From Isoetes taiwanensis (lineage: Eukaryota > Streptophyta > Lycopodiopsida > Isoetales > Isoetaceae): DNA of 64,000 nt. The notes beneath the pieces are model-generated. The model did not search any database. It worked only from the letters and a program-made list of their open reading frames with translations, and was not told where the DNA came from. The translations under genes were made by a program, and so were the position numbers. The stretch spans positions 4,697,962 through 4,761,961 of the forward strand of contig JAJEKV010000054.1 in assembly GCA_021234155.1 (NCBI GenBank). The letters run 5' to 3'. Below are positions 25,766-58,510 of this stretch, piece after piece. Each line of letters begins with the position of its first letter. Position 1 is the first letter of the stretch.

Positions 25766-25768
25766 CCA

Positions 25769-25811
25769 AAGAAATGTTCGCGGCGGCCTTGGCCGCCGCG
25801 ATAAATTTCTT
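25769..25811. repeat. 43-bp GC-rich hairpin element, copy 1
   Basis: Outer AAGAAAT and ATTTCTT enclose perfect 10-bp arms CGCGGCGGCC (25779-25788) and GGCCGCCGCG (25791-25800) with a 2-base loop TT. Its reverse complement recurs at 46585-46627 and 53308-53350, and a deleted form occurs at 58877-58899. The surrounding DNA is AT-rich, so the hairpin stands out sharply. Confidence 0.85.
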
Positions 25812-29300: not shown

Positions 29301-29490
29301 GCCTTACGCACGAAATTTCCACAAATACTTGCATCGGCCGCCGATCCTCATCCATCTAGAATTGTAAGAAGAATGTGCTTCATTAATCTTACCACAGTTA
29401 GACGACCTTCATTTTGCCTCAGAATTTATATCCCGCCTCACTAGAACCAGCTTCCCAACTCAGATTTGGGTCATCAGAATTTCTCCAAGA

Positions 29491-30642
29491 ATGTCTACTC
29501 CGACTAGCAGCCCGGTTCAGACAGGAAGCGCATATCCAACAGCGCTGAATTACAGGTTCAATGCAAGCATGGCAATAATAGTAGTGGTTTTGGTGACAAC
29601 GTTTTTCTTTCTGGGTCTGTTTGTGCTGTATGTGAGAAGATGCAACAGGGATAGCGATGTGAGGGCAGATGGGTCGCTGCAAAGGGCGTACTGGCGGGAG
29701 AGGGAAGGGGTGGGAGTGGAGCCTGAGATGGTGCAGAAATTACCTCTCATGAGATTTGCGTCTGTAAAAGGGCGGAAGAAGGGCAAGGTCGGATTTGAGT
29801 GCGTTGTCTGCCTGGTTGAATTTGAAGAAGAGGAAAAGCTTAAGCTGCTCCCGACCTGCGGCCACTCTTTCCATCCCCAATGCATCGATATGTGGCTTCA
29901 ATCCCACACCACATGCCCCCTTTGCAGATTTAGCCTTGTCCCCTTAGAATCTGCTCCACCTGATCCCAATTTGCAAGCGGATCCTCAGTCTGTAGAAACA
30001 GGGGAACCCCAAGATCAGACCATCCCTGTTTCTATCATTCGCACCCTTTCTCGTAATTCTGAATCCTTCAAACAGGCAGTTCAGAACCTCGAACACTCCC
30101 CCTTGAGGAAATCTGATATGGGTTCTCCCTCAAACCCCAAATTGCCCCCCAGAAGCCCTCTTTCTGCTGAAGAATCTCTTCGCAGAAACCGTATGATTCT
30201 TCTTCGCAGTGGTTTAAGTCGATCTGTTGGTCATAATAGCATTGCCAATCGACCCAACTGGGCTGAAATATCTGAATTTGCTACTAAAGACCCCAGTTCT
30301 GGTGCCGGATCTGTGATCATTAACATTGATCCTGTAGTAGGTGAAAGAACAAGAAACTGGAGAGAAATTAGCGGCCTTCCAGCTACTCCTGAGCATTTTG
30401 AAGAAGAGGAAGCCGAAAAACATTCCGGATTTTCATTCAAAAGGACATTCTCTTTGCGCAGATCTTCTTCAGATGGCAAGACAATCTTTACTTCCAATGC
30501 AAGGCTGTTCACTGGAGATCAGAGTGCTCCAACTCCTCAATCTCCTGCTTTACAAGATAACAAATTCATTCCAGCTCTTACAAGGAGTCTCAAGAAGCTT
30601 GTTGGCAAAGATTTTCCTCAAACATCTCCTGCCAGACCTTGA
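29491..30642 (+). CDS. ATL-type RING-H2 E3 ubiquitin ligase
   Basis: This is a single-exon frame of 383 codons with layout and length typical of the plant ATL family: a short N-terminus, one membrane helix (about residues 27-48, AIIVVVLVTTFFFLGLFVLYV-like), a basic stretch, then a RING-H2 domain at about 104-145. The zinc ligands are C104, C107, C123, H125, H128, C131, C142 and C145 (CVVC, CGHSFHPQC and CPLC blocks). The long C-terminal tail is rich in Ser, Pro and Arg (SRNSESF, SFKRTFSLRRSSS). By family knowledge it should accept ubiquitin from an E2 and tag membrane-associated targets; the substrate cannot be read from sequence. The start is the first Met of the frame, before a Ser/Thr-rich leader. 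The 3' part of the coding sequence (from 30083) is duplicated at 34.58 kb. Confidence 0.92.
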   Translation: MSTPTSSPVQTGSAYPTALNYRFNASMAIIVVVLVTTFFFLGLFVLYVRRCNRDSDVRADGSLQRAYWREREGVGVEPEMVQKLPLMRFASVKGRKKGKVGFECVVCLVEFEEEEKLKLLPTCGHSFHPQCIDMWLQSHTTCPLCRFSLVPLESAPPDPNLQADPQSVETGEPQDQTIPVSIIRTLSRNSESFKQAVQNLEHSPLRKSDMGSPSNPKLPPRSPLSAEESLRRNRMILLRSGLSRSVGHNSIANRPNWAEISEFATKDPSSGAGSVIINIDPVVGERTRNWREISGLPATPEHFEEEEAEKHSGFSFKRTFSLRRSSSDGKTIFTSNARLFTGDQSAPTPQSPALQDNKFIPALTRSLKKLVGKDFPQTSPARP

Positions 30643-32940
30643 TCAAAAGGAATCTTGGTTTTTGTTTTCATATCAACATTATATTAATTCATTGTACATA
30701 GCTGGATATAATTTGAATCTAGGTTTGCCTCCTGCAGGATGGTGTTTTCCCCAAACCAGCCACAAGAAAAAAATGCCCCTGTTTGGGGATAGGATACTGA
30801 AGGATTTGTGTGTTTTGTATGTCCTAAACAATTCATGGAAAAGATGGGATATGCGTTGCATTTTACTCGTCACTGTTGTATGAAGGCGTATTCAACAATA
30901 TTGTGTGAGGACCATGTTCAAGTGCAAAGAATCCCTGTCAATTGAGTACAATTTGCAAAAGTTTCGTGAATCGGTCTACACTCATCATTGCTTTCAAAGC
31001 CTTGATTCTTGCAAAAGCAAGGGCCGTGTGAACATTGAGCACAGTTCGTCTCTCATTATTTTATGTTATATTCTTTTTATTACGGACAAGAACAAAACAC
31101 AGGATATTGAATGGTCAGAACTATGAAGATTAGGTTGGAATATTTCTCTGATTGGCATGTTTATCTTGGCACTGTTTTGGTCAAGTATCTTGGCACTGTA
31201 TTAAGAAGCATAAGAAGATGCATGAGATTAAATGGTCGGGGAATATGAGGAGGATTAAACAGGAATAAGAGCCAAAATGGCTGGCTGTTAAGTATCTTAG
31301 GATTTATTTATAAGTAACTTTTTATGATAATGAAGGGTAAAAAGTGAGCTTTAAGCAGTTATGGTCATGTAGCAGAGGAGCCATCAGTAACGTTCAGTAC
31401 AGGGAGCCAAAAAGCAGGGGAAGGAACTTAAAGAAACGGCAATATCAAAAAGAAGCATAATAATAATAATGATAAACAAAACAAGCTACTACTTTCTTCA
31501 ACTACCCAAATGGAAGCTTTCACGTCTCATGACTTGACAGATTTGATAACAATGGCCGAGGTCCCATGAAGCACTACATGCACAAGAAGTGCGCTGGAAC
31601 TAGAAGGGAAAAAAAAGGCTGCCATGTAATCTGATTGTAACAGTGTAAAACCTGTGTTTTGAAAAAGAGAAAATGACCAAGCGGAAAACTGCATTTCTGT
31701 GTGGAAGAAATGCTTCAAGATGTGGCATCTTGTACACATAACAGCAAGGCCAAGGTGAAACATTGATGCTGATCATTAGATATGTCACTAGAAAGTTAGG
31801 ATGACATTTGCACCATAGCTCTTGAATGGTCCAAATGAAGCAACTTTTTGTGCCTTTAGATGTCAGCTGTAGAGGACGAAAAGACAAAGGCAAATGCTGT
31901 TCCTATTATCATACATTTTAATGCTCAACTACTACCAACCTCCAAACATGTCCCTACCCTCATTAACTGGTCAAAGGCGCCTTCTCTGCCTTGCTTGCAC
32001 CCACAAAACACAATGAGGAAAACAAAGCACAAATGTACAAACTTGGGCATGACTTTCTACTCTTATATCGCCATAGTCCAAGTCAAAGCTTGACTTCTGC
32101 ACAACCATCAGGAATAAATTGCTTTCATATTCCTCTGTGTGCAATTGGATAATATAGATATATTGAACCATACGCTTCCTTCGATGTTACAACGGCTACA
32201 TGCCTTCCAGAAGTTTTGAATTGTGCACTGCAGTTCACAATAATAACACAAAGCATGCTCAGTATTGACAAGCTAAAGTCCAACACGTGAAGTATATCAA
32301 AGATGACTTCTTTGTCTATCCTAGAAATTTTGGTTTTATGTTGTACCAACATTTCAAAACCATGCACTTGCATTATTGGCAAATGTGAATCAAACTAAAT
32401 CAAGGTGTAACATATTAGGGCTAACCTCCATAAATGCTATTGACGCATATGATTAAAGAGAAAGGGACTTGCAACTTGCAAGAATGGAATTTCTATGCAT
32501 AGAGTATTAATTAAAAAGCAACTCTACTATCTTAGCTATGGCGGGACAGCATCCATGAATCTAAGCACAAACACTTCCAACACAATCAAAATTATTTGTG
32601 TTTCTGATCCATACATGTAGCTAAAGTTTAGAATTTATCATCTATTCATTCATCACTAAACTTGATTAAAGAATATAATCATATCAATAGTATCACTAAA
32701 TTTAGGGGAATCCTTTCCATTAAGAAATATAATCATATCAATAGCATGGTAATGCCAAACAACAAAAGACAACCACTAATATGCCAGGCCATATGCCAAA
32801 ATAGAGAGAGAGCATTATGGCACTATACTATCACATTACATTGTTTTCAAATATGAAGTTCCCGAGCACCAAATGACATGCGTGACTTCGCATTATACAT
32901 ACTCAGGTTCTAGATAAACGTCTGCGCATTAATGTTCCTC
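30643..32940. other. ATL 3' flank, no gene recognised
   Basis: The first few hundred bases are probably ATL 3' untranslated sequence. Short frames on both strands (31600-31893 minus, 31860-32093 plus) resemble no known protein, and most are broken in the second copy, which argues against coding. Confidence 0.4.
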
Positions 32941-32949
32941 GGTAGTCAT

Positions 32950-33118
32950 TATCCCGCTTGTCTAGTATCATCATCATCGCAGCGTTTTTCCTTTGAAAAC
33001 CTTTATACAGCGGGGTTTTAATCCTAGTAAGAATGATTGTGTCAAGCCCATTGTATGTCCCGGGACCTATTATTGGTCTCCGTGGACGTTAAAAAATTCA
33101 TTCTATTCTATTCCTTTT
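32950..33118 (+). mobile_element. LINE 3' terminal fragment with (ATTCT)n-like tail
   Basis: TTTTTCCTTTGAAAACCTTT, GGGGTTTTAATCC, then TTGGTCTCCGTGGACGTTAA and TTCTATTCTATTCC correspond to the end of the LINE at 55.88-56.02 kb, which has GGCCTCCGCGGACGATAAAA and TTCC repeats. Only the terminal 150 bp or so remain. Confidence 0.65.
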
Positions 33119-34578
33119 ATGTAAAAACATCATTAAAAATATTCTTTAGAACTTAAGATTGGAGATTCATGTTGCTTCCCCATTAGCATGAAGAAGCTAA
33201 CCGCAGCAAAAATGACAAACCAAATGGCCAAAAGAAAATTAACAAGCATTAAATTTTTCTTGAAATAACCTGCGTTTCACCAAAATATGACGATTCAATA
33301 AGAGATATATACCTTGTTATGGCAAGAGAAGAACCAATTCCCGGGTTTACACTAAAAAAACTGAGGCCTCTAGGAGTGAAATAGCAAAAACTAAAGCACC
33401 GGAACGGCACCTCTCCTCATTATTTGGAGTTTGGGAATTTTCACTATGAAAAGGTGTTCCAATACCCCAAAAAAATACCCCCAAAAAATGCCCGAAATCC
33501 CCCCTTTCGCCAACAACAACAATGGGGATAAACCGGACTTTTAGAATCGGAGTTTTTGCCAATAATCCCCTTTTTTCTCATTTTAAGATAATATCCCCTT
33601 TATGCAAGTCACAATCCCCCTATTCAAAAATGTAAATTCATACTCTATTATTATTTGTAAGATAATACGCTATTTGCATAATAATACCTATTATCATTTA
33701 GGTTAAACCCCCTCTCAGAATATCACCCCTAAAATAACATACTATGTTTTCATTTAAGATAATAATAATGATAATACCATGTTATGATTCATAAGATAAT
33801 ACCTACTCCTTGTTATCATCATTTGAAAGATTATACCTCATTTCAAAAACAAGTTGATAAGTAGCAAATTGATCGAAGTTAATTAGTAAGAAATTGATAA
33901 GATTTTTTATTACTTCGTAAAACAAACAAGTAATAAATTGATCGTGCTTCAAGAAACAAATTTGATACACAAATACCGCTTGACCATGTCGCTCAAGTCC
34001 ATACAATAACATTTTTAGACGGCAGATTTGATTTCTTTTGAAAGGATTTTGATGGGACCTTGTACGTAAGAAATTTAGACAAATGTTCAATTGGCATCTC
34101 GGCGTAAATTGGTGCAACTGCGAATCGATAACCCATGGACAAACCACAATTATTCCCTATCTTCTATCCATAACCTCTTATGCTATACTAATATTTAAAT
34201 TCTAAAATACAAATAATACTTTATGGAATCAATACCATTGTGTAGGAATTGCGAAAATTAAAATCTAGCTTAGAATGTACCCGAACCTTCATCAAAGCAC
34301 ATCAAACTTGCACCATTACTTATATCATGGGATCCCAACATCTTATTCTCTTTTCTTTAAAAAAGACCCCAATCTGTTTGCAAAATCAATTTTGACCCAA
34401 TCCCCCTTTCTTAAAAAAATACCCCATTGTATTTGCAATCTTCTATTTCCACACTTCATTCCCCATTAGAATACACTTTTGTTAAGAATCTCCCTTTTGT
34501 TTAATCATTCCCCATTGCAAAAGAAATAACCCATTGCTCTCAGTCCCCGTTCCTCAATGGGGGATTTTACGAGGGAAT
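33118..34578. other. AT-rich non-coding end of duplication copy 1
   Basis: Repeated AAGATAATACC / TCATTTGTAAGATAATA motifs fill 33570-33850, and CCCCATT-type runs fill 34370-34570. No gene is seen. Confidence 0.4.
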
Positions 34579-34580
34579 AG

Positions 34581-35135
34581 AACCTCGAACACTCCCCCTT
34601 GAGGAAATCTGATATGGGTTCTCCCTCAAACCCCAAATTGCCCCCAGAAGCCTCTTTCTGCTGAAGAATCTCTTCGCAGAAACCGTATGATTCTTTCTTC
34701 GCAGTGGTTTAAGTCGATCTGTTGGTCATAATAGCATTGCCAATCGACCCAACTGGGCTGAAATATCTAAATTTGCTACTAAAGACCCCAGTTCTGGAAG
34801 CCGGATCTGTGATCATTAACATTGATCCTGTAGTAGGTGAAAGAACAAGAAACTGGAGAGAAAATTAGCGGCCTTCCAGCTACCTCCTGGAGCATTTTGA
34901 AGAAGAGGAAGCCGAAAAACATTCCGATTTTCATTCAAAAGGACATTCTCTTTGCAGATCTTCTTCAGATGGCAAGACAATCTTTACTTCCAATGCAGCA
35001 ATGTTCACTGGAGATCAGGAGTGCCCAACCTCAATCTCCCGTTTACAAGATAACAAATTCATTCCAGCTCTTACAAGGAGTCTCAAGAAGCTTGTTGGCA
35101 AAGATTTTCCTCAAACATCTCCTGCCAGACCTTGA
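34581..35135 (+). pseudogene. Second copy of the ATL 3' coding part, frameshifted
   Basis: It corresponds to ATL codons from about residue 199 to the stop. Relative to the intact copy it has a one-base loss in the C-run after AAATTG, an added T in ATTCTTTCTTCGC, an altered GGTGCC/GGAAGCC, an added A in GAGAAAATTAGC, and others. It has no start, membrane helix or RING. It cannot encode a ligase; it is either a dead duplicate or an error-bearing duplicate of the same locus. Confidence 0.85.
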
Positions 35136-37440
35136 TCAAAAGGGAATCTTTGGTTTTGTTTTCATATCAACATTATATTAATTCATTGTACATAGCTGGA
35201 TATAATTTGAATCTAGGTTTGCCCCCGTAGGATGGTTTTTTCCCCAAACCAGCCACAAGAAAAAATGCCCCTGTTTGGGGATAGGATACTGAAGGATTTT
35301 GTGTGTTTTGTATGTCCCAAAACAATTCATGGAAAAGATGGACATGCGTTGCATTTTTACTCGTCACTGTTGTATGAAGGCGTATTCAACAATATTGTGT
35401 GAGGACCATGTTCAAGTGCAAAGAATCCCTGTCAATTGAGTACAATTTGCAAAAGTTTCGTGAATCGGTCTACACTCATCATTGCTTTCAAAGCTTGATT
35501 CTTGCAGCAAGGCCGTGTGAACATTGAGCACAGTTCGTCTCTCATTATTTTATGTTATATTCTTTTTATTGTACGGACAAGAACAAAAAACACAGGATAT
35601 TGAAATGGTCAGAACTATGAAGATTAGGTTGGAATATTTCGATTGGCATGTTTATCTTGGCACTGTTTTGGTCAAGCATCTTGGCACTGTATTAAGAAGC
35701 AAAGAAGATGTACGAGATTAAAATGGTCGGGAATAAGAGGATTAAACAGGAATAAGAGCCAAAATGGCTGGCTGTTAAGTATCTTAGATTTATTTATAAG
35801 TAACTTTTTATGATAATGAAGGGTAAAAAAAGTGAGCTTTAAGGCAGTTATGGTCATGTGTAGCAGAGGAGCCATCAGTAACGTTTCAGTACAGGGAGCC
35901 AAAAAGCAGGGGAAGGAACTTAAAGAAACGGCAATATCAAAAGAAGCATAATAATAATAATGATACAACAAAACAAGCTACTACTTTCTTCAACTACCCA
36001 AATGGAAGGCTTTCACGTCTCATGCGACTTGACAGATTTGATAACAATGGCCGAGGTCCCAGAAGCACTACATGCACAAGAAGTGCGCTGAACTAGAAGG
36101 GAAAAGGCTGCCATGTAATCTGATTGTAACAGTGTAAACCTGTGTTTTGTGAAAAGAGAAAATGACCAAGTGAAAACTGCATTTCTGTGTGGAAGAAATG
36201 CTTCCAAGATGTGGCATCTTGTACACATAACAGCAAGGCCAAGGTGAAAACATTGATGCTGATCATTAGATATGTCACTAGGGGTAGGATGACATTTGCA
36301 CCATAGCTTTTGAATGGTCCAAATGAAGCAACTTTTGTGCCTTTAGATGTCAGCTGTAGGACGAAAAGACAAAGGCAAATGCTGTTCCTATTATCATACA
36401 TTTTAATGCTCAACTACTACCAACCTCCAAACATGTCCCTACCTCATTAACTGGTCAAAGGCGCCTTCTCCACTGCCTTACTTGCACCCACAAAACACAA
36501 TGAGGAAAACAAAGCACAAATGTACAAACTTGGGCATGACTTTTCCTCTATAATGCCATAGTCCAAGTCAAAGTTTGGACTTCTGCACAACCATCAGGAA
36601 TAAATTGCTTTCTATTCCTCGTGTGCAATTGGATAATATAGATATATTGAACCATACGCTTCCTTCGATGTTACAACGGCTACATGTGCCTTCAGTTTTG
36701 AATTGTACTGCAGTTCACAATAACACAAAGCATGCTCAGTATTGACAAGCTAAAGTCCAACACGTGAAGTATATCAAAGATGACTTCTTTGTCTATCCTA
36801 GAAATTTTGGTTTTATGTTGTACCAACATTTCAAAACCATGCACTTTGCATTATTGGCAAATGTGAATCAAACTAAATCAAGGTGTAACATATTAGGGCC
36901 AACCTCCATAAAATGCTATTGACGCATATGATTAAAGAGAAAGGACTTGCAACTTCTGTAAAAGAATGGAATTTCTATGCATAGAGTATTAAGCTAAAAG
37001 CAACTCTACTATCTTAGCTATGGCGGGACAGCATCCATGAATCTAAGCATTAACACTTCCAACACAATCAAAATTATTTGTGTTTCTGATCCATACATGT
37101 AGCTAAAGTTTAGAATTTATCATCTATTCATTCATCACTAAACTTGATTAAGAATATAATCATATCAATAGCATCACTAAATTTAGGGAATCCTTTCCAT
37201 TAAGAAATATAATCATATCAATAGCATGGTAATGCCAAAACAACAAAAGACAACCACTAATATGCCAGGCCATATGCCAAAATAGAGAGAGCATTCATGT
37301 GGCACTATACTATCACATTATTATTGTTTTTCAATATGAAGTTCTCAGAGCACCATCTGTGCATGACTTGGCATTATACATACTTGAGGTTCTAGATAAA
37401 CGTCTGCAATTACTGAGCCCTCAGTAGTCATTATCTCCGT
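35136..37440. other. Second copy of the ATL 3' flank, no gene
   Basis: This collinear copy of 30643-32940 carries scattered indels. No coding sequence is supported. Confidence 0.45.
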
Positions 37441-37449
37441 TTGTCTAGT

Positions 37450-37605
37450 ATCATCATTACTGCAAAGGTTTTTCCCTTGAAAACCTTTCGGCAGGGGGTT
37501 TTAATCCTAGTAGTAATGATTGTACTAGCCCATTGTATGGGTCCCATGACCTATTGGTCTCCGTGGACGTTAAAAAATCTATTCTATTCTATTCTATTCT
37601 TATGT
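37450..37605 (+). mobile_element. LINE 3' terminal fragment, duplicate
   Basis: It duplicates the fragment at 32950-33118, with GTTTTTCCCTTGAAAACC, ATTGGTCTCCGTGGACGTTA and four ATTCT units. Here the text reads GGGTCCCATGACCTATTGG, closer to the LINE consensus at 55.97 kb than copy 1 is. Confidence 0.65.
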
Positions 37606-39160
37606 AAAACATCATTAAAAATATTCTTTAGAACTTAAGATTGGAGATTCATGTTGCTTCCCCATTAGCATGAAGAAGCTAACCGCAGCAAAATGACACC
37701 AAATGGCCAAAAAAAAATTAACAAGCATTAAATTTTACTGAAATAACCTGCGTTTCACCAAAATATGACGATTCAATAAGAGATATATACCTTGTTATGG
37801 CAAGAGAAGAACCAATTCCTGGTTTACACTCTGAAAAAGACGGGGCCTCTAGGAGTGAGAAATAGCAAAAAACTAAAGCACCCCCGAAGCCACCTCTCAA
37901 AAGATTATTTGAGCGGGAATTTTCACTATGGAAAAGGTGTTCCAATACCCCAAAAAATACCCCAAAAAATGCCTGTAAAATCCCCCCTTTTTTTTCGAAC
38001 AACAATAGGGGATAAACTGGACTTTTAGAATCGGAGTTTTTTTTGCCACAATCCCCCTTTTCTTCATTTTTAAGATAATATCCCCTTATGCAGGTGTCAC
38101 AATCCCCTATTCAAAAAATGTAAATTCATGCTCTATTATTATTTGTAAGATAATACGTTATTTCAGATAATACCCTGTTATCATTTGTAAGCTAAAACCC
38201 TGTCTCAGATAATACCCTAAAATAACATACTATGTTTTCATTTGTAAGATAATAGCCTGTTTCAGATAATACCATGTTATGATTCATAAGATAATACCTA
38301 CTTTGTTATCATTTGAAAGATTATACTCATTTCAAAAACAAGTTGATAAGTAGCAAATTGATCAGAGTTAATTAGTAAGAAATTGATAAGATTTTTTATT
38401 ACTTCAGAAACAACAGTAATAAATTGATCAGACTTCAAGAAACAAATTTGATACACAAAATTCTGCTTGACCATGCTGCTCAAGTCCATACAATAACATT
38501 TTTACCGCTGCAGATTTGATTTCTTTGGAAAGGATTTTGATGGGACCTTGTACGCAAAATTTAGACAAATGTTCAATTGGCATCTCGTGCGTAAGTGGTG
38601 CAACTGCGAACCCGTAACCCATGGACAAACTACAATTATTCCCTATCTTTCTATCCATAACCTCTTATGCTATACTAATATTTAAATTCTAAAATACAGC
38701 TATACTTATGGAATCAATACCATTGTGTAGGAATTGCGAAATTAAAATCTAGCTTAGAATGTACCTGAACTTCATCAAAGCACATCAAACTTGCACCACT
38801 TATATCATGGGATCCCAACATCTTATTCCTCTTTTCTTAAAAAGACCCCAATCCGTTTGCAAAATCAATTTTGACCCAATCCCCTTTCTTAAAAATACCC
38901 CTTTGTGTATTTGCAATCTTCTATTTCCACTAATTCCCCATTAGAATATACCCTTTTGTTCAAGAATCCTCCCCTTTTGTTTAATCATTCCCCATTGCAA
39001 AGAAAATAACCCATTGCTCTCAGTCCCCCGCTCCTCAATGGGGGATTTTCTGGGGAATGTGAGCACTTTTTTCGTTTCTTTTGGGTTGCCATACTTTAAT
39101 GCAACTATGAAATTAGAATATGCCATTTATATTGTAACATGGAAGGTGGAGATTCGTGAC
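37605..39160. other. AT-rich non-coding end of duplication copy 2
   Basis: It mirrors 33118-34578, with AAGATAATACC-type repetition at 38060-38330. After 39059 the duplication ends and unrelated sequence begins. Confidence 0.4.
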
Positions 39161-46525: not shown

Positions 46526-46584
46526 TGGACGAAATGTTAGGGTAGGCCACATTTCTTGTTATTATCATCTGTTTTACATCCTAC

Positions 46585-46627
46585 AAGAAATTTATCGCAG
46601 CGGCCAAGGCCGCCGCGAACATTTCTC
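46585..46627. repeat. 43-bp GC-rich hairpin element, copy 2
   Basis: This is the reverse complement of the 25.77-kb copy, with one mismatch inside the stem (GCAGCGG for GCGGCGG) and the last base C rather than T. The flanks differ from copy 1, so the element itself is the repeated unit. Confidence 0.85.
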
Positions 46628-47057
46628 TTTTTCAAAACTGTGCAGTTGGACTCCAGTTAACGTCCAACATTCTCTTCTGCAATGGCCAAGTGATTCTAGA
46701 TTGATGTGAAGCAACTTCGTAAGATCTTACATTCTAACTCTAATTTAGAAATTACAAAATGGGAGAATATTTACCTTGCATGCAATTAGTGAAGCAGAAG
46801 AGAAGCGCTCACAATAGCTCTTAAAGTGCTCTCAATGCGTCGAGACAATAAGAAGGCCTTCTATTTATAAGATGGAGTTTTGTTGGATGATCGACACACA
46901 TGACTAATCTAGGGCTATATTTATGCCAAGTGCCTATATCACAACTCGCATGTAATCATTAATATCATTCGATATATATTTCATATCCATAATTATCCTA
47001 AAATGGATATCATTAAGATTCTATATATATTGGGATTGATATCTTCTAACAAATTTG

Positions 47058-47320
47058 CCAATGGCCGCAATAAATGCAAAGTGCACACATGTCGTGCTTT
47101 GATAATTCGCAATAAATGCAAAGCGTATTAATGGCCGCAATAAATGCAAAGCGTATTAATGGCCGCAATAAATGCAAAGGGTATTAATAGCCGCAATAAA
47201 TGCAAAGTGCACACATGTCGTGCTTTGATAACTCGCAATAAATGCAAAGCGTATTAATGGCCGCAATAAATGCAAAGCGTATTAATGGTCGCAATAAATG
47301 CAAAAGATATTGTGGGTCGC
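47058..47320. repeat. 28-bp tandem repeats, left subterminal array
   Basis: Repeated units of CGCAATAAATGCAAAGCGTA plus TTAATGGC, with two longer variants that include GTGCACACATGTCGTGCTTT. The array continues at 47545-47860 after an unrelated insertion of about 200 bp (47320-47530). Confidence 0.85.
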
Positions 47321-47535
47321 GAAGGTCCTGGAAGCGGGATTTACGCCGTTACACCGTAATGCCTGCGTTTGATTCCTCAGTCAAGCGCTCCTGTGATCCC
47401 AGTCAGTTTGCCACCTGCATCGACGCTTTCACCCGTTCACATAGGTTCTTCCAGGCGGTCCTCTTCCCTAGAGTTAGTTGATGCCATTGGATCCTCTTTC
47501 TAGGAGTCAGTGGGACATCACCACAGGCGGTTATC
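47320..47535. other. Unrecognised GC-richer insertion within the tandem array
   Basis: From TGTGGGTCGCGAAGGTCC to ACATCACCACAGGCGG the sequence is unlike the surrounding AT-rich repeat. It contains a short frame (ending FFQAVLFPRVS at 47481) that I cannot assign. It looks like a separate insertion. Confidence 0.4.
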
Positions 47536-47797
47536 TAAAATGCAAAGTGCACACATGTCGTGCTTTGATAATTCGCAATAAATTCAAAGCGTATTAATTG
47601 CCACAAAAAAAATGCAAAGTGTATTAATGGCCGCAATAAATGCAAAGTGCACAAATCTGCCATAAATGCGATGAATGCAACGTGTCATCCTATGTTAATG
47701 CTCATATCTTCCTCCGCCATAAATGCTCATAAATGCCTCAAATCTGAAATTAATGCCCGCAATAAATGCTTTATAATCAATGAATGCACACAATATT

Positions 47798-47927
47798 CGA
47801 GGTTATTAATGGCTGCAATAAATGCTTTATAATCAATGAATGCATACTGTACACGTGTCATGCTTTAGGAATTTTTAAGGAACAAAATAGGGGAGAACAG
47901 AAATTAGACACTCAATTACATAGGAAG
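47798..47927. repeat. Left inverted subterminal repeat of the recombinase element
   Basis: GGTTATTAATGGCTGCAATA, TAATCAATGAATGCA, ACGTGTCATG, GAATTTTTAAGGAACAAAAT, GGGAGAACAGAAAT and ATAGGAAGGAT follow in this order. The same series is read on the minus strand at 51422-51302. Confidence 0.8.
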
Positions 47928-48207
47928 GATAATTTTCTATGACATTCCTGTGACACTTGGTAGGGCTAGTGCCAGCTGTCCTAGCTAGTGCCATCTGGCA
48001 GTGCTTGTGCCAGCACCAAAATTACATTCACCAAAATTACATTCACCAATACATTCAAAATTACAATTCACCAATACATTCACTTTCGATTCAAAATTCC
48101 AGTTTCCATTCAAAATTTGCAGTGCTTCAAGCAATCTGCAATTGATTACAAGTTTCATTAAAAAAAAAGAAGTTTCAATTGCCATTAAAGGCATTCAACA
48201 AGTTTTA

Positions 48208-50168
48208 TCAGATAAACTTATCAGAATTACAAGATTGCCCATGATATTTGTGGAGTGCATCTTTGATCTGACTGGCATCAGTGCACTGAATGAACAAACA
48301 GTTGCTCACACTTCCTAAGAAGGAAAATCCAGAAACGTGCTGCAGAGAATTACCAGTGACAAGAGTTTTTGACGATGGGATTTTCAAATCCAATAGAGCT
48401 TCATCAGAAATACCCTCATAGAAACTAGCATTTTCTTTGTCATTTCCAAAACCTGGAGCCTTAGAAACACAAATTGCTAGCATAGCAATTTCCTTCCCCT
48501 TAACTGAACTTGACTCCTTCACAAATACTTGCTGACCGTAACTGTCATTTGGATCAACAGCAACCAAAACACGAGATGGAGCAGAAGATGAACCAGCGCA
48601 ATCATTGATTTGTTTCTTCTCAATTTCAGCAGCTAACACTGATTCATAAGTCCTCGGAGCACCAGTTTTAGTAACTGGATTAGAGATAATGGACATAGCA
48701 GCACGCATCTGAATATCTTTCGTCCTGTCATACCTAAGAAACAAAAATTATGAACAAATTATAACATTATACAATCAGAAATTACTTTTCAGAAATTACA
48801 CAATCAATTTACTTTTCATACGCTTCAAGTGATCGATGCCCTGTGATTCTCATACCGACCTCAGCAGGAACACTTGCCATCGCCAATCGTGTAACAGTTG
48901 CAACGCGTCCAGATTTATTCGAGATCTCCCCATGATTAATTAAAGACCCCATTGTCTGAAGCCAAGATTTTATCATCTTCAGTCCAACTTTATTGGTGGA
49001 ATACCAGACCTGAAAAGCAACAATTAGTAATAAAAGTTGAATCTCAACCTAAGCAATAACATAAAAAAATTCAAACTACTTACATTTCCAGCAGGCCTGT
49101 TGATAGAAGTCAGAAACAAACTCCTAGGTTCATCATTATCTTTGGCAGGCATATGCCTAACATATTGCTTAAAAGTCATCACAAAATCTGCCTCATGCGT
49201 GCGAACAGGCTCCCTAAAATGACTGCTATCATATCTTGTTGCAGTTACCTGATAATTCTTACTCTCCCTCTCACTGTATTCTATAAACTCACCACAGTCA
49301 TCACTGCCAAGAGAAAGATCAGTATCTAGCAAATTATAAAGTTCTGTCGCTGCCCTAATCCCAAACCTTGAACAAAGGTAAAAACACAGACGTTTCTGAC
49401 AGCCACGATTAAATGTCATCTGATGATCCACATCTGCTAACAAATCCCTTTCTAAACTGAAACTGATAGAAGGTGCCCTAACAGTCTTAGTCCCAACACC
49501 TTGCACCCTAGATCTCCTGGCAGCTAACACAAAAGCATACGTAGCTCTAGTAAAGATTTCATTTGTAATTATATTAAACCTCACTTCCTGATTGCCTGTC
49601 TCTCCAATCCTTTTCTCTTGATGCTTCCTGATCATTCTTCCAATAGCCCTGTATAAAACACTAAGGCTGCAAACACAAACAGTCAGCATAAAACCAAATT
49701 AAAAAATTGCATAAAAAAGTTACCTGCCAGCGGGATACAGATCTCCATTCTTCTTTTTCACTTGAAGCATGAATTTCACCAGCATATCATATCTTCGATA
49801 GGAACACTAGTATCAAGACCAAATGCCTTCCTCCAATTATCAAAACGTTTTGTGGCCCAAATAGAGACCCCAATAGACCTATCCCGACCACCAGATTCTA
49901 ATTCCTTTATCAGTTCTTCATCCAAAGTTAAAAACTCATCCTTATCCTTATTGTCCACATTATACCAATCACTGTCCTTTACTTCAGCAGCAAACTCATC
50001 AATCTTATCAGAAGGAAAGGCTTCCAAAAACATATCAACGTCTTCAGTAACTTCCTCCTCATCAACACCAGAAAGAATGGCAAAGGAATGCCACGTCTCA
50101 GCAGCCATGTGATCATCTATGGCACTCTGATAATCTATAGCACCTAGCTGATCTATAGAAGCATCCAT
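48208..50168 (-). pseudogene. Crypton/DUF3504-like tyrosine recombinase, four exons, probably inactive
   Basis: Minus-strand exons: 50168-49724, 49666-49084, 49009-48813 and 48733-48208; each intron begins GT and ends AG and keeps frame. Exon 1 carries an acidic region and ATKRFDNWRKAFG, like the N-terminal SAM-like domain. Exon 2 has FGIRAATELYNL (first catalytic Arg) and ESKNYQVT. Exon 3 has VWYSTNKVG and GRVATVTRLA (second Arg). Its end and exon 4 give GHRSLEAYEKY, with His and the Tyr nucleophile at the usual spacing of nine residues. This order matches DUF3504 and Crypton recombinases, which cut and rejoin DNA through a covalent tyrosine link. Two defects: a five-base repeat (ATATG) near 49785 shifts the frame in exon 1, and the HxxR histidine is Lys (NKSGR). 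The start at 50168 is chosen over the Met at 50261, which would add a hydrophobic leader. Confidence 0.75.
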
Positions 50169-50925
50169 CTTTACAGGCCAGACAAAGAACAGAACCTTAT
50201 AAGCGATAATGTTCACAAAGAAAAATAAAAAGGCCATGAAAACAAGGTATTTAGCCATCACAGACCGATCTACACGCGAAATATTAGGGATAACGCAAAA
50301 AGCTCAAGATAGAAGCACAAAGTTTTGCACGGAACATACTAATCTGCATAGCAAATAAGTGGATATACATAAGAAAGGTCGGGATAGGCTTGCAAGAAAG
50401 CACAAAAGCAAGAAAGAAAGGTCGGGATAGCCTTGCATGTTACTCCAACAGACAGAACTGTAAAAAAAGCACACGGATCAGTAATGTTTCTCGTAGAAAC
50501 ATGGAAAAATAACAAGAACTCGTGATTTTACCTGAAGATTTCGCCAAAATAGCAAGATCTTTCGCAAGAAATGATACTCTACAGTTGCATGTACCTCCAG
50601 GCGACAAAATCTGCAAGAAAAACATGTTAGGACGCATGATTTCACAAAAATCATGTCAAAATCGAATGATCATCATCAAAATCGAAAGATAATCATAGTA
50701 AACCTCTGAAAATACTGTCAGAAACTGCTGAATCAACACAAAAGATGCTGGCGCCACTGAAAATGCTCCAAACTCGAGGCACTACCGCCAAAATCAACAC
50801 CAGACGGTCCGCAACACACAAAAATATGATCCAGCAAGCAAAAAAGTCGACGAGGAAGCTAAGCGGCTAACGGACCGCCATAGCCGACCTCGCCATAGCC
50901 AAAAATGTGGAGACTGTCCAAAAAT
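50169..50925. other. Upstream of the recombinase gene, no exon recognised
   Basis: It probably contains the promoter or leader of the recombinase gene. A minus-strand frame at 50440-50637 shows no domain. GAAAGGTCGGGATAG is present twice at about 50374 and 50415. Confidence 0.35.
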
Positions 50926-50929
50926 TTTG

Positions 50930-51130
50930 TCCCTAACATTTCGTCCCAAAATTCGGCCACACGTGCGAAATGTGGCCTACCCCTAACATTTCGAGGGGGA
51001 ATGTTCGGGCATAGGCCATTACGCGGGGTGCGGCCAGTGGCTCGCCCTCCGGGCTCGCCAAGTGGCCTTACCCCGCGTAATGGCCTACGCTCGAACATTA
51101 CCCCTAACGTAATATCGGCCAAACATTCAT
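50930..51130. repeat. Fold-back element inside the recombinase unit
   Basis: Arms 50995-51029 and 51070-51104 are inverted repeats of 35 bp with three mismatches (cores AGGCCATTACGCGGGGT and ACCCCGCGTAATGGCCT). The centre GGCCAGTGGCTCGCC / GGCTCGCCAAGTGGCC is also partly symmetrical. CCCTAACATTTCG repeats flank it at 50932 and 50982. It is GC-rich against an AT-rich background and resembles a MITE. Confidence 0.75.
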
Positions 51131-51192
51131 TACATTCCGTAATGCACGCCTGTCAAGATTCTGGGTATAAGTTTTCTCGGTGGCGCACTCGC

Positions 51193-51237
51193 GGCTCTGC
51201 CACTCGTGCACTGCCTCGTCTGGCAGAGCCACCTTGA
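51193..51237. repeat. Stem-loop GGCTCTGCCA / TGGCAGAGCC
   Basis: Perfect 10-bp arms with a loop of about 19 bases (ACTCGTGCACTGCC core), followed by ACCTTGAAAAATTAT. It could be a terminator-like hairpin or part of the element end; its role is unknown. Confidence 0.6.
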
Positions 51238-51301
51238 AAAATTATATGTCAGAATCTTTTCCAGATGTGTCTTCCATAGTACATAACCAATATAATCCTT
51301 C

Positions 51302-51422
51302 CTATCTAATGCAGTGTCCATTTCTGTTCTCCCTTATTTTGTTCCTTAAAAATTCTTAAAACATGGCACGTGTGCACTCATTGATTATACGGCATTTATT
51401 GCAGCCATTAATAAACTCGAAT
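51302..51422. repeat. Right inverted subterminal repeat of the recombinase element
   Basis: It is the reverse complement of the left repeat, with ATCCTTCCTAT, ATTTCTGTTCTCCC, ATTTTGTTCCTTAAAAATTC, GGCACGTG, TCATTGATTATA and GCATTTATTGCAGCCATTAA in order. I estimate that most positions match; a count needs alignment. Confidence 0.8.
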
Positions 51423-51539
51423 ATTTCGTGAGTCGTGACGTTAGATGTCAGGGCATGTATGGCGGCCATTAATGAACTCGAATATGGCATTTATGGCGGC
51501 CATTAATGAACTCGAATATTTCGTGATGTTGAGTTGTTG

Positions 51540-53305
51540 AGTTCTGGATTTGATGCAGACCCCAAAGAAACAGAGCCCTGCCTCCGGCAGAAAAAGGGTG
51601 GTAGGCTCGTGTAGAATAGCCCTACCTGAAATGGCACTGCCAGATTTGGGCAGTTGGAATTCTTCCTCCGATTCCCTCTGTGCCTATTCAAAACCCAAAA
51701 ATCTCCCTAGATTGGATGCAATTTCTGGATCAAACTATGTCCAAATCATTCTGAAGACTTCAATTCCTTTGTGCTCATTTCTTCTGCATTGCCGGAGCAC
51801 CAGAATGGGCTTCACGTGAAGAGGGCACAGATTTGATCATGGCGTGTAGGTTATGGCAGGATTTTCCTATTGGGCACCCAAGTCCGGCGCTCGCCAGGCT
51901 TTCAGCAACATAACCCACCTCTATCTCGCATCAAAACTGACCCAGAGTCAGGGATGGCTTGCCAAACCATTTAAGTTCTTTTCTAGCTAGAACGATATCA
52001 GCCTTGTGTGCTCAGGTTCACAGGCCAGCCTAACCAAAGTATCAACAAAGGACCATTCCTCCAAATTAAGGTCTTACTATAGTAAGTTCATCCTCTGATT
52101 TGCATTGGCCGCTAGTGAAGATCTCAAAGAATCCAATAGAAGCTGGAGCAATCGATGTATCGCTGCCACCACCGAGCCACTTGATTGCGCAGCAGGGTAA
52201 GTATACTCTATTTTTTTTCTTGAAGTGCCCTGTATTTAGTTCTCTGTTTCAATTCAATCCATTCAATTTCGAACCATAGCAGCCATAGATTGCGGCCAGG
52301 AACAGAATCTCATAGCTAGAAATTTTTCTAGGGTTCAGAACCTATAAATATGCTTGTGTTGTGGCGATGGAGGTTTGATTAGATAGATCCATTCACGCAG
52401 CAATGATTTTCGGGCTTCTGAGTTGTTGTTGGACGAATCATCATTCAAAGAGCCATTGGGAGTTTTCGGCTGTTTTCTTGCAGGTGATCTCATGCCCGTT
52501 TGGGTCTATGAAGATTTATGCAGGCGATTGAGGTTACTTCAGTATTTGATTGCAGAATCTAGAAGGGATGATGTTTGTGTAAATGGGTTGCATAAACATA
52601 TGTACAAAGCTAATAAAAGAGCACCAGAAAGCTGTTTTCTTTGTTGTTAATCAGTCATGGAATTTCTGCATTTATTGCGGTGCAAGGCAATGCCAAATTG
52701 CCAATATCTCTTCTTAGATGTTTAAGACTATAAAGCGGACAGAGCTTCTTCATACATAGGCATGTAGCGAATTTAGATACAGAGGCAAAACCCAAGTCGG
52801 ATTTGAGCGGACTATGACCCAATTTGATGCAAGAATGGATTTACTAGAGATTGCTTCCCTGTGATCTAGATTTCAAAGCAGATGCTCACCCTGCAGCAAA
52901 AAGGGCTCAGAAAGAAAAGTAGGCCTGGGTTTTGAAGTAGAAGGATAGGCTATGGGCTGAAGGGCTGAAGGTTTTCACAACGGCAAGGCAGGAAAAAAAA
53001 ACGACGGGATCATAAGAAGATTTTTTTCCTCAAAAGTCCCTTCTGTACAAACCCCAATCCTTTAATTCGTTGATTCCCTCCATTCCGTTCCAAAAGCATT
53101 TCATCTGGTGGATACGACAACCATCACTAGATTAGGGGAAGGATACGGTTCTCCAGATACGGTTCCTGGATTAGTTTGAAGAAGCAAATAGGGGAAGAGG
53201 GGGAAAAAGGCCCTTTTTTGCATGGAAAAAAAGAAAAAACCCTTGGGACCTATATAATGCATCCAAATGAGGAATCCAAGCAAAATAGTTTTGTAAATTA
53301 AAGTT
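51540..53305. other. Intergenic, nothing recognised
   Basis: Frames at 51550-51819, 52423-52650 and 53101-53358 show no domain and no splice context. No repeat is shared with the rest of the window apart from the hairpin that follows. Confidence 0.3.
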
Positions 53306-53307
53306 AC

Positions 53308-53350
53308 AAGAAATTTATTGCGGCGGCCAAGACCGCCACGAACATTTCTT
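53308..53350. repeat. 43-bp GC-rich hairpin element, copy 3
   Basis: It has the same orientation as the 46.6-kb copy, with arms GCGGCGGCC and GACCGCCACG carrying two changes (A for G, A for G) and TTATTG for TTATCG. The flanks are unrelated to those of the other copies except for a preceding ACAAG. Confidence 0.85.
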
Positions 53351-53454
53351 TTGTCCAACTCTTCTTAAATAAGGTTTGATATTAAGCCAAAATGATCACA
53401 GTTCTGAACCTGCAAAATTGATTGAACTAGATGAATCTAAGCTTGGAAGTTTCC

Positions 53455-53570
53455 ATTTATTTTTTTTTTTGAGGGTACGAAGTTATGATTTTCTATTAAT
53501 AAAAAGTGGTCCAAGACCTTATTACAAAGTGGCCCAAATGGCCTTATAGGAAGAAGTAGCACATGGTCAC
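53455..53570 (-). mobile_element. Possible retroposon 3' end (reverse)
   Basis: A T-run at 53458-53470 is followed by GAGGGTACGAAGTTATGATT and TTCTATTAATAAAAAGTGG. Read on the minus strand this would be the poly-A end of a LINE or SINE. No body could be identified. Confidence 0.3.
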
Positions 53571-54595
53571 CAGATAGAAAGCATCAGTTTCATAAAAAAG
53601 CAGCTATCAGGCTAAGAAAGCACCATATAATAATGTCTGTGTACTCTGATTGAAGCAGCTTCAACCTCTTCCCTATCATTTACAAGAGGATATAAGCCTC
53701 TCCTCTCGTCTCATCCAGTACTAAGGGACTTGGTCCTCTTCCAACCATATCAAGTACTATGGGAAGTCCGCTACATTAGTGGAGCCCTACTAGAAACATG
53801 CATCCAGACTATGAAGCATACTCCCAAAATATATTCCTGGAAGCATAGATTTTTCAGCATGGATAACTTGACTAGAAGTGCACTCTTAAAAGTTCACTCT
53901 CTTCTCCCATCCATAATACTATAGGAGATGTAAACCCTTTCCATCAGTACATCCCTGCTAACTTGAAGCATGCCCCGAAAGATTAAAGCAAAAAAATACA
54001 TTACGTACTAAGGAGAACTCCCTCCATCTTCTCATAAATGAGGTACTACGAGTGGTTCTCAAAGGATGTACATCTCCATATTTTCCAGAATAATGATAAA
54101 CATCTGATAACCTGCCAAATACATCTTTTACATCTGAAGAGTTTGTTTTATACTTATTTCCAATGTCTTATATATGGCATTGTGTGGAAACATTTCACCT
54201 GCACACAGGAGCAAAATATTTTGTGTTCATACTGCATTTTCTAAGTGATGATCCAATTCCTTTATTCTTTCCAAGGAGGTTTCATTACTTGATTGCAGAA
54301 GTCCACCACAAACATTTTTCTTTCCCAATCCCTCTGGTTTCATATCCTCTATCCATGTCTTCGCATCCTTTGTCTACTCATTTACAGCATGAAATTCGTC
54401 TGGTAGTGAACATGTATCAATTTGTCTGAGAACAAACTTGTATAATCTAAGAACACACAGGACTTCAACCTGCACTATTGCCTCGTGCTCCGTGGGTGTT
54501 GTAATCGACAACCATTGGGAGTCCCACTAACTCGATTTTTCCATTGAGAATCTCAACTATGAATCTCCTTTGAGAATAAGATTACATAAGCCCTT
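53570..54595. other. Intergenic, nothing recognised
   Basis: AT-rich with short frames only. Confidence 0.3.
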
Positions 54596-54600
54596 CCCAA

Positions 54601-56025
54601 TTGTTCTTTTATGGTGCGTTATCCTTCATCCGGCAGCTCATCTATGCGGATGATGTGGACCTCTTGTCCCATACACCAGAGGGCATGCAGGCACACCTAG
54701 ATGCCCTGGACACATTCTGCCAGGCGACGGACATGCGTGTCAACCTGGCCAAGACTAAGGTGGTCCTCATATCCTCCTCACGTCATCCAGCACCTCCGCG
54801 CTCACTTATCAAGGACAGATGGTGGAGGTCACACCCAGCTACAAGTACCTGGGGGTGGAATTTCCGTCCTCAATGTATTGGGATGTATCCATTAAGCCTT
54901 GAATTGAACGAGGTTGGAAAGCGCCAGACGCAAATGCAAAACAATAGTCACAAGGCGTAGCCAGTATGACCTGGGGCCACCAATCACATTTGTTCCGCAC
55001 CTTTGGTGGAGCCGGTTCTTACGTGTGGGGGTCGAGGTGTGGGGCCCGATGGTGTCTTTGGCGACTTGGAACGACTTAGAGCGGGCCGGAAGGCATTTTG
55101 GCGGGCACTTGGGGTCAAGCCCTCGGTTCCATATCGGATCTTGTTGCGGGAGAGGCGAGGATTCATGCCCCCGCAACATCGCGCCCCTCGATATACACAT
55201 TGTTTATTTCGAAGGTGGCCCGGCATGGGCGACACTTTCGGCTCCCGCGCAACTTCTGCCAGTAGCGATGAGCCCGCGAACGACTCGGGGCTTGTTGGAA
55301 GGACAAGAGAGCCCGGTGGCTGGCGCTGGAGGCGTGACTCACATAGGTGCGTCCGGTGCACCTGAGGCACCCGGCCCGGGATAAGAGGGGGTACTTGGAC
55401 TCTTGTTTCACAGGGAAGCTCGGGACCATCATGCTGGAACGGTAAAGATGGCACACTACAAGCGACACATAAACCCCACCACGGTTCGAGGCCCACAGCT
55501 CTACTGCGTTCTCGGTTGCCCATGAAGAAGCGAAGGATCATCGCATCCATTCGAGCGAGGGGCCCACCATCTTCGGCAGGAGACGTCGATGGGTTGGAGA
55601 GCCGCGCCCGGGGCGAGCTTTGTCGGTGTTTACTGCCCGGGGTTGTTGAGGATGAAAGACATGCCTTCCAGAGCTGTCCAGCCTATAGTCAGATTCGGGC
55701 TCGCTACATTCTCTTGGTGTGACATGGTCTGCCCCTGCACGAGCTACTCAGTACACTGTCAGTTCGATCCCTTGGCTCCTACCTCCAGGAGGTTTTGGAT
55801 CTGCGGACTCACCTCTGCCCCCGGGCGCCTATCTGAGGTGCCGGGAATTCATGTGTATATGTATATTTGTATAGCTGCCAGCATGCTTGTTGCTGCGACG
55901 GTTTTTCCCTCCTAAAGGGGGTTTAATCCGGGTAGCAACGGGCTTGCTGCACCCGTGTAATTTGGGTCCCATAGGCCGATTGGCCTCCGCGGACGATAAA
56001 AGAACCTTCCTTCCTTCCTTCAATA
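54601..56025 (+). mobile_element. LINE 3' half: reverse transcriptase end to tail, broken
   Basis: The reading frame starts within the reverse transcriptase palm with LIYADDVDLLSHTPEGMQAH, the YADD catalytic box, then MRVNLAKTKVVLIS. Beyond a frameshift come GVEVWGPMVSLATWNDLE (55033) and, in another frame, ALGVKPSVPYRILLRER. Near the end a zinc-knuckle-like CRCLLPGVVEDERHAFQSC lies at about 55620-55675. The 3' end is GGCCTCCGCGGACGATAAAA followed by TTCC units (56000-56020). The endonuclease and the first half of the RT are missing, and frame changes occur near 54830, 54960 and 55200-55400. By its tail it is a non-L1-like, microsatellite-tailed LINE; the clade is not determined. Confidence 0.8.
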
Positions 56026-58340
56026 AGTCTAGAATGCAACCCGCAATAACATTCAATAACTTAATAACAAACTACAAATGAAAATGTCCAAATTGCTAAA
56101 AACTTGTAGGAACTATAACTTGAAGTAACTTCTTTAAAGTTTGTTTGCTATTGACATTTACAAAGTAATATACGCAATGTCATGAAACCCTAAAGTTATT
56201 ATTTTGCTCCACTAGACACTAATTTCAAGGCTTGCTCCTACTTTGCTACCAAATGATCTAAGTTTTCCATGTCTTTCAAAACTTGGTCATGTTATCTTGC
56301 ATAAATAATATGCAAGCATTAATATGTTACATCTAAGTTGAGAATCTTAACTTTGTAATATGTATTTCTAAGGCTATACAAAGTTAGTTACAACTATGGT
56401 ACCACATAGTAAATAAATCAGTTCCCAAGAGTATTACATAAGTATTATAGAGTAGGGCATGCATGTGAATAAATAGTAAATTGAAGAACTAGCAAAAATA
56501 TCTCTTAATTCTAGACTTCATAAAGCTATAGTCTCACATTTCTACATCAAGCATACAAATCCTTGGAAGCACAGATAATAGTGATGATTTTCCAGATCGA
56601 CCTGTAAGCATCGAATGGTTTATTGGTAGTCTTGGATCCACTATATATAAAGACAATCCTTGTTTACTGCAATGTCTTTTGTCCAATGCCTTTTCTCCAA
56701 CTGTAGCTTTTCAACCATGGCAGATAATGTAGAAGGCAATTCAACAAAGGTGAAGACAGTGCTACACTGACTTTGGTCTTTCATGAATTATGTTAGCGAA
56801 GAAGCAGCTATATGTGAAAACCAAGTTCCTCAGCTCTTCCTACATTTACGAGAAAGGCATATTCAATTACTATTTAATATCAATGCTTTACACCAAACAA
56901 TTAACACTTAACACTTAATGGCTTCATATCCATACTTCTAAAATAGACAGTCTTTGGTACTCTTAGATGCAACCTTGATTTGCTCCTTCCTTTTGCACCT
57001 TTATCACTATAAAATGCATCTACAGCAGAATGAATTCAATTTCCAAAGCAGATCGAAAATATCATCTTAACTATTTGAGGTACCAAGAATGCCAAAGAAA
57101 TTCATTGGAAAAGAAAGGGCAAAGAAAAATGAGCTCCTTCTATGCAATCAAATTGAATACCCTATGGGTTCATAAAACTGGATCCTGGACTTGCTCGCAA
57201 AGCTTGCTTGCAAACTGGCAATCTCGGATTCCCCAACATCTATCACACGGTCATGGCAGCTATGACATTGATGCAGAGGAGCGACTTCGAATGCATCTGT
57301 TACCCGCCTCAATCTTCTCTTCAACAGAAAGGCAAAAAATTAGGGCAATGAAGCATATGACATTCACAAAATAAAAGGGCAACTATGGCGTAAGAAGGAA
57401 GCATAAAGCCGTAGATTTATTGCCTCCAGTAGATTCGCAGAAGCAAAATGCCAGTTGCATCTAACTGGTGCCAGTTGTTGGAAGAAACTGGCTCTCACGA
57501 AAGAAGAGCCAGATTAGGCATGGCAAATGCAGAGCAGGCCATAGCAAGCTAGTCTGACCAGCAAATCCACAGAGGCCATTGGAATAGGTCAAATAAATAT
57601 GGCAAATCTGGCAATTATGCCCTGTTCACATGCATAAAAATGAAAAAATGCCGGCTGCAAAGCGGCATGACATCCTAAGCAGTGCTACAGATTTCATAGC
57701 AGTGCTGCAAATTGTTTTGCCGTTTTGCGTACACCCATCAACGAAACTGCAGTAGCTAGAAGAGAAATCAGTTCTGCTGCACCGCTGGTCACGCCCACCT
57801 CCATCACTGCTGCTATTCTAGAAGCTCATGTGAATCTTACATAATTGATTACAAATATTCCATCGAAGAATGGTCGAAATCCAGCATAACCTCAAGCTGC
57901 AAATCCTTATTGATAGACTTATGGCAATGGCAAATCTAGAGCAATAGAATTTTGCAAGTAAGATGTAATTATCAAGCAAAGCCTCTGCAATGTATAAGAC
58001 AGCATGGAAAAGGAAGTGGTTGGAATCACAAATCCAACCAAAAAAGATTGCTCGCTTCTGGCTAAAAAAGCCAGAGTCCAAAACTTTAGCTGATATCTAA
58101 TGTGAACTACATTTTAACAGTGCCATGCTAGAACAAAACAAAATTGGCACCAGTCCGGGTAGGAATCATCCGGCAAACAGCATTCGTCGAGTCTTCATTG
58201 CAGCCACAGTGCTTGGGCTGAGGAGCAGAATACTCCGCTGGATCTGGATCCAACTTCCCCAAATCCGGCAAAACTGGGCAAAAACGGGGGCGCAGGTTTG
58301 TCTTTTATTTTTCGTTTATTTTTCGACTGGTCTCAGGGCT
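56025..58340. other. Intergenic, nothing recognised
   Basis: AT-rich sequence. The frames at 57030-57374 and 57818-58081 resemble no protein I know. No repeat was seen apart from TGCCAGTTG... near 57450-57480. Confidence 0.3.
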
Positions 58341-58341
58341 T

Positions 58342-58510
58342 GATGCCCGCCATAAATGCCATAAATGCACCATGTCATATGCTCATAATTAGATGCCCGC
58401 CATAAATGCCATGAATGTAACGTGTCATGCGATGGTAATTTTTAAGGAAGAAATTCGATGAGAACAAAAATTGGATACTGCATTACAATAGGAAGGATAA
58501 ACACCTATTA
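58342..58510. repeat. Solo copy of the recombinase-element subterminal repeat
   Basis: GCCCGCCATAAATGCCATAA is repeated, then ACGTGTCATG, AATTTTTAAGGAAGAAAT, GAGAACAAAAAT and AATAGGAAGGATAA follow, in the order of the left inverted repeat at 47.8 kb. No recombinase gene is beside it, so it is either a truncated or a non-autonomous relative. Confidence 0.7.

Follow-up and report, generated by a model that had tools for sequence, protein, structure and literature searches.

Very probably, the locus described here is a degraded Crypton-like DNA transposon, of which many copies exist in the genome of Isoetes taiwanensis. The window, i.e. the whole stretch of 64,000 nucleotides that was analyzed, harbors a spliced tyrosine recombinase gene located between ends which are shared by other genomic copies (Table 1). 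An earlier note on this DNA had proposed that the recombinase and the inverted, tandem-rich repeats surrounding it form one element that could be a new lineage. What stood of this proposal is the DUF3504/Crypton recombinase, which sits in a multi-copy plant element, whereas the inverted repeats turned out not to be the ends of this element. Their arms are the 5' ends of two Helitron-like insertions.

Table 1. Coordinates of the features of the locus (positions within the window; a dot means that no strand is assigned)
Feature	Positions	Strand	Remarks
Crypton-like element	46530..51108	-	ends common to genomic copies, flanks differ
Recombinase gene, four exons	50168-48208	-	introns of 57, 74 and 79 nt, all GT..AG
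Exon 1	49724..50168	-	acidic at its N-terminus; presumably includes the core-binding region; frameshifted near 49800
Exon 2	49084..49666	-	catalytic Arg (FGIRAATE) and invariant Lys (SKN)
Exon 3	48813..49009	-	KxxR box (SNKSGR) and GHRS
Exon 4	48208..48733	-	completes catalytic Tyr (KYDR); C-terminal part without assigned role
5' terminal arm GTTAGGGGTA	51099..51108	-	5' end read in eight copies including the window, one of them (L028) with a variant arm
3' terminal core ATTTCG, following arm TACCCTAAC	46530..46535	-	copy comparison
Hairpin-forming subterminal segment at the 5' end	50994..51105	.	within-window repeats and copies
Helitron-like non-autonomous insertion, 1,346 bp, nested in the element	46584..47929	-	copies stop at identical points
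5' end of second Helitron-like copy, outside the element	51296..51545	+	right arm of inverted repeat

The recombinase gene and its protein family

The four-exon gene on the minus strand was confirmed, including its GT..AG introns, but it contains a frameshift in exon 1 that was absent from the earlier description. In two relatives (L040 and L041), the reading frame is open through the region matching this frameshift. The blocks FGIRAATE, GRVATVTR and GHRSLEAYEKY were found in the order that had been claimed, the codon of the last tyrosine being split by intron 3.

As previously suggested, and judging from profile matches and from the residues that are retained, the gene encodes a DUF3504/Crypton-type tyrosine recombinase. 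The sole Pfam match of the joined window protein was DUF3504, with an E value (0.0059) that falls short of the curated cut-off, and a PHROG integrase family matched the adjacent C-terminal part (E 0.002). When six members of the family were compared to the profiles, DUF3504 was matched by five of them (best 1.2e-4), Phage_integrase by two (best 0.014) and the PHROG integrase family by all six (best 6e-4). Single exons of the window did not match DUF3504 in Pfam. GCR1_C and C48 domains were found neither in the exon reads of the window nor in the joined protein or the six members scanned, and an HTH match in one family member was negligible (E 0.3). Searches of the PDB sequences with the window protein and the family gave no recombinase among the matches, a search of NCBIfam did not yield any recombinase match, and no relative of the recombinase was confirmed in the viral and bacterial collections. 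Structure prediction for exon 2 gave models of poor quality (pLDDT 37.7 and 56.6), with which Foldseek returned nothing at E ≤ 0.001.

The catalytic residues were counted in 29 joined rows, window included, leaving out the unreadable rows at each position. While the first catalytic arginine is present in 28 of the 29 rows, the lysine of the SKN motif, to which we presumably may ascribe a catalytic role, occurs in all of them. The position of the box-II histidine is occupied by lysine in 21 and by arginine in four of 28 readable rows; serine, methionine and threonine were each seen once. Both the second arginine (23 of 26 readable rows) and the GH histidine downstream of box II (25 of 26) are mostly kept. 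The catalytic tyrosine was found in each of the 23 rows that can be read there, six of the 29 being unreadable at this position. It is situated nine residues past the GH histidine, a spacing which we take to be the same as in XerD.

Between most close copies, the gene is under purifying selection. Fifteen pairs were analyzed, of which four gave no ratio (three were saturated and one was without synonymous change). In 10 of the 11 pairs with a defined ratio, dN/dS of exon 2 ranged from 0.03 to 0.18; the pair L041/L042 reached 0.89. A second copy of most of the window (5384-64000, about 84-98% identity) exists on contig C941 (G000:C941:22313000-22362900; L009, L018-L021). It was left out of the selection tests because of dense patches of differences and many indels relative to the window, which near the gene make it look like an unpolished haplotype or a duplicate.

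Copies, ends and insertion sites of the element

A search of the 1.66-Gb source genome with exon 2 as the query, for which 150 of 1,662 first-look candidates were scored, gave at least 151 matches, the weakest among the matches listed having an E value of 4.2e-35. In the exon-2 protein, the identity of four copies to the window amounts to 97-98%, which suggests that the family has moved fairly recently.

The comparison of genomic copies that the earlier note had recommended revealed common ends at 46530 and 51108 and one contiguous empty site. With regard to the sense of the gene, 51108 is the 5' end and 46530 the 3' end of the element, whose length is 3,233 bp (3.23 kb) after subtraction of the nested insertion. 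The 5' arm reads GTTAGGGGTA in seven copies and GTTAGGGGTG in L028, each time next to a different flank. The sequence GTTAGGGGTA occurs once more from 50987 on, immediately inward of the hairpin-forming segment. At the 3' end, the core is ATTTCG in eight of nine readable copies, window included, and ATTTTG in L025, while L033 shows one change in the arm TACCCTAAC; the 3' end of L028 did not match the pattern and was left out of these counts. The termini consist of short inverted arms of only 8-9 bp, as expected for the core site of a recombinase, and do not contain long inverted or direct terminal repeats. Pairing of 46530-46555 with 50967-50993 as terminal inverted repeats was rejected, since the 5' end of the copies lies 115 bp farther out, at 51108.

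The empty site was detected on contig C906, where a related sequence (88% over 112 bp) is contiguous across the insertion point. It reads ACAAAGTTC-G-TGGCTATATTT in its unfilled form, compared to ACAAAGTTC/GTTAGGGG...CCCTAACATTTCG/TGGCTATATTT in the filled form (slashes mark the junctions). TTCG (4 bp) is the sole sequence which this site has in common with the element ends and, from the comparison of both forms, it represents the shared core. At this one site, the element inserted with no more than 4 bp of shared core. Within the flank, 27 bases farther on, the C906 sequence is itself interrupted. In a second related site (C1063), 78 unrelated bases lie between the flanks at the insertion point, and the flanks of L029 led to what is apparently another filled copy. 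Eight target hexamers were compared with ATTTCG. They match it at 35 of 48 positions, a count that none of 20,000 draws reached (null mean 18.55). The last G is fixed in the hexamers as well as in the draws. None of the eight hexamers is identical to ATTTCG.

Elsewhere in the window, a tandem duplication at 30083-39058 (unit of about 4.5 kb, 92% identical) overlaps a RING-finger reading frame at its end, the RING protein being located at 29368-30639; on C941 there is seemingly a single unit. Several long reading frames of up to 371 aa occupy 8521-11087; in the two of them that were scanned, no Pfam match fell below E 0.08. The region 44662-45144 matches Pfam FA_hydroxylase and looks like a plant sterol oxidase. 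Genes such as this one and the RING protein are in keeping with a land-plant host.

Helitron-like insertions and alternative explanations

The presence of inverted repeats and tandem arrays on both sides of the gene, as stated in the earlier note, was verified. The repeats at 47792-47936 and 51425-51289 share 84.8% identity along 145 bp, with an E value of 4e-33 for the comparison inside the window, and arrays of the CATAAATGC/ATTAATGGCC type occur at 47060-47311, 47574-47649 and 51452-51519. A third copy of the repeat module is located at about 58342-58500. The left arm and the left arrays are part of the nested insertion; the 3' end of the copy to which the right arm belongs was not found within the window.

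The family to which both arms belong resembles Helitrons in possessing a 5' TC, a 3' hairpin and, at the site that was checked, integration between an A and a T without target duplication. However, its 3' end is CTTG instead of the canonical CTRR (PMC7385966). TC was itself part of the pattern used for the 5'-end search; in 13 of 15 loci an A precedes it, and in L012 and L016 a T, after duplicates from C941 and two spurious rows had been dropped. Of 14 ends on the 3' side, 13 read CTTG and one reads ATTG, each of them being followed by TA; C941 duplicates, reverse palindrome readings and two odd 3' rows are not counted here. The hairpin, which has decayed in L007, is a GC-rich palindrome in front of this end. 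All seven recombinase copies read at this point show the unoccupied site ATCCTATAATTT, indicating that the nested insertion did not create a target duplication. Two other copies do not fit this behavior: L008 is flanked by a direct duplication of 27 bp (1477-1503 and 2698-2724), and the flanks of L011 share a 12-bp string, at an offset. Beyond their shared part, the flanks of the three modules gave a null result in a comparison with 300 shuffles, as the best similarity (outer left versus outer right) was reached by five shuffles and that of the other pairs by 13 or more.

Further traces of such insertions are present. On the minus strand, 53307-58497 is probably a third Helitron-like copy, with about 5.2 kb between its 5' and 3' ends, that contains an RVT_1 (reverse transcriptase) fragment at 54580-54957. 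A lone 3' end with an 11-bp hairpin and CTTG was identified at 25758-25812, without a 5' end upstream within the window. In L013 and L017, the Helitron-like ends adjoin one AT-rich palindrome-forming sequence, which is perhaps a preferred target.

The inverted repeats are real and flank the gene, and the earlier note had regarded them, together with the tandem arrays, as the ends of one Crypton-like element. Such an element, terminating in inverted repeats of about 145 bp, is hardly conceivable in view of the genomic copies. In nine of the 17 loci tabulated (L023-L029, L033, L039), a recombinase copy without the left arm joins 46583 straight to about 47929, from which it follows that the unit 46584..47929 is a later insertion. 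The left arm itself, used as a query, has at least 49 matches in the genome, the window's own included. At all seven loci examined besides the window, the left-arm copies stop at 47930-47933 and extend outward, reaching 46570-46582 in five of them, and none of the seven has a match to the recombinase gene. The right arm, for its part, is located some 180 bp beyond the end of the element. Copies of this kind, whose ends differ from the inverted repeats, are what the earlier note had named as refuting its reading.

Two other explanations concern the origin of the gene. Its introns, likely introns in the 5' UTR as well (judged by eye), and the low dN/dS are gene-like features that could point to a domesticated, recombinase-derived host gene among repeats, comparable to the animal genes ZMYM2, QRICH1, KCTD1 and WOC, which contain the same Pfam domain as the present family. 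Against this, there are many copies having shared ends with unrelated flanks, one empty site and a frameshift in the window copy. Moreover, Kojima and Jurka (PMC3212892) report that domesticated DUF3504 genes no longer possess the catalytic tyrosine and the second arginine, whereas the present family, in many copies, mostly keeps both of them along with the first arginine, so that domestication is very improbable. Somewhat less remote, yet still very unlikely, is a non-autonomous relic of a DIRS-type retrotransposon that has lost its reverse transcriptase. DIRS elements likewise use a tyrosine recombinase (PMC3537659), but no other long gene lies between the element ends among the reading frames of the window, neither a reverse transcriptase nor a DDE transposase was found in the frames and exon reads of the window copy, and the ends of the element are not long repeats. 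The Crypton-like transposon is the reading followed below.

Relationship to Cryptons and proposed movement

Records of Crypton-like elements in plants are scarce, and the published statements disagree. Kojima and Jurka name animals, fungi and stramenopiles as the groups from which Cryptons are known (PMC3212892). According to a 2026 review, no Cryptons have been described in plants (PMC13317346); it cites a 2020 Arabidopsis review whose statement refers to A. thaliana alone (PMC7385966). By contrast, a 2015 survey lists Crypton among the superfamilies that occur in every group it studied, including land plants, but the section concerned does not show an element (PMC4438587).

Like the animal (CryptonA and CryptonI), fungal (CryptonF) and stramenopile (CryptonS) elements, the present family comprises recombinase elements of a few kilobases that have a DUF3504-type domain and a short core shared with the target. 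Cryptons are described as being devoid of terminal inverted repeats and as having direct repeats of 4-6 bp (PMC3212892), a range that includes the TTCG shared at the empty site. On the other hand, the present family differs by its land-plant host, the short inverted arms at its very ends, four coding exons and the lack of a GCR1_C or C48 match in the reads scanned. In addition, it mostly has lysine or arginine at the box-II histidine of the published R-H-R-Y tetrad. As far as the sequence features compared allow a judgment, the family would fit the Cryptons apart from its box-II residue and its short terminal arms. We consider it rather likely that a large and overlooked Crypton lineage, active until recently, is present in land plants and is characterized by lysine or arginine in box II and by inverted TTAGGGGTA arms around an ATTTCG core of 6-7 bp. 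Perhaps this lineage has escaped notice because Cryptons are not among the elements sought in plant repeat annotation.

For the movement of the element, a Crypton-style integration of a circle may be inferred. The spliced recombinase would join the two element ends to a circle, an intermediate that has been proposed by analogy for Cryptons (PMC3212892). The circle joint, TACCCTAA-CATTTCG-TTAGGGGTA, would serve as the recombinase site, with inverted arms of 8-9 bp and a spacer of 7 bp, and would recombine with a genomic hexamer resembling ATTTCG. After integration, the 3' end would keep ATTTCG, and the hexamer of the target itself would be found at the 5' end. Later on, a Helitron-like unit inserted near the 3' end of the element; another one is located 0.2 kb past its 5' end, and the two gave rise to the inverted repeats originally reported.

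As the present locus demonstrates, nested insertions can mimic terminal inverted repeats. If its placement holds, the family would provide a concrete multi-copy Crypton of a plant, for which the ends are mapped, one empty site is available and the recombination site is predicted, and the circle-and-core model of Crypton movement would become directly testable in a plant.
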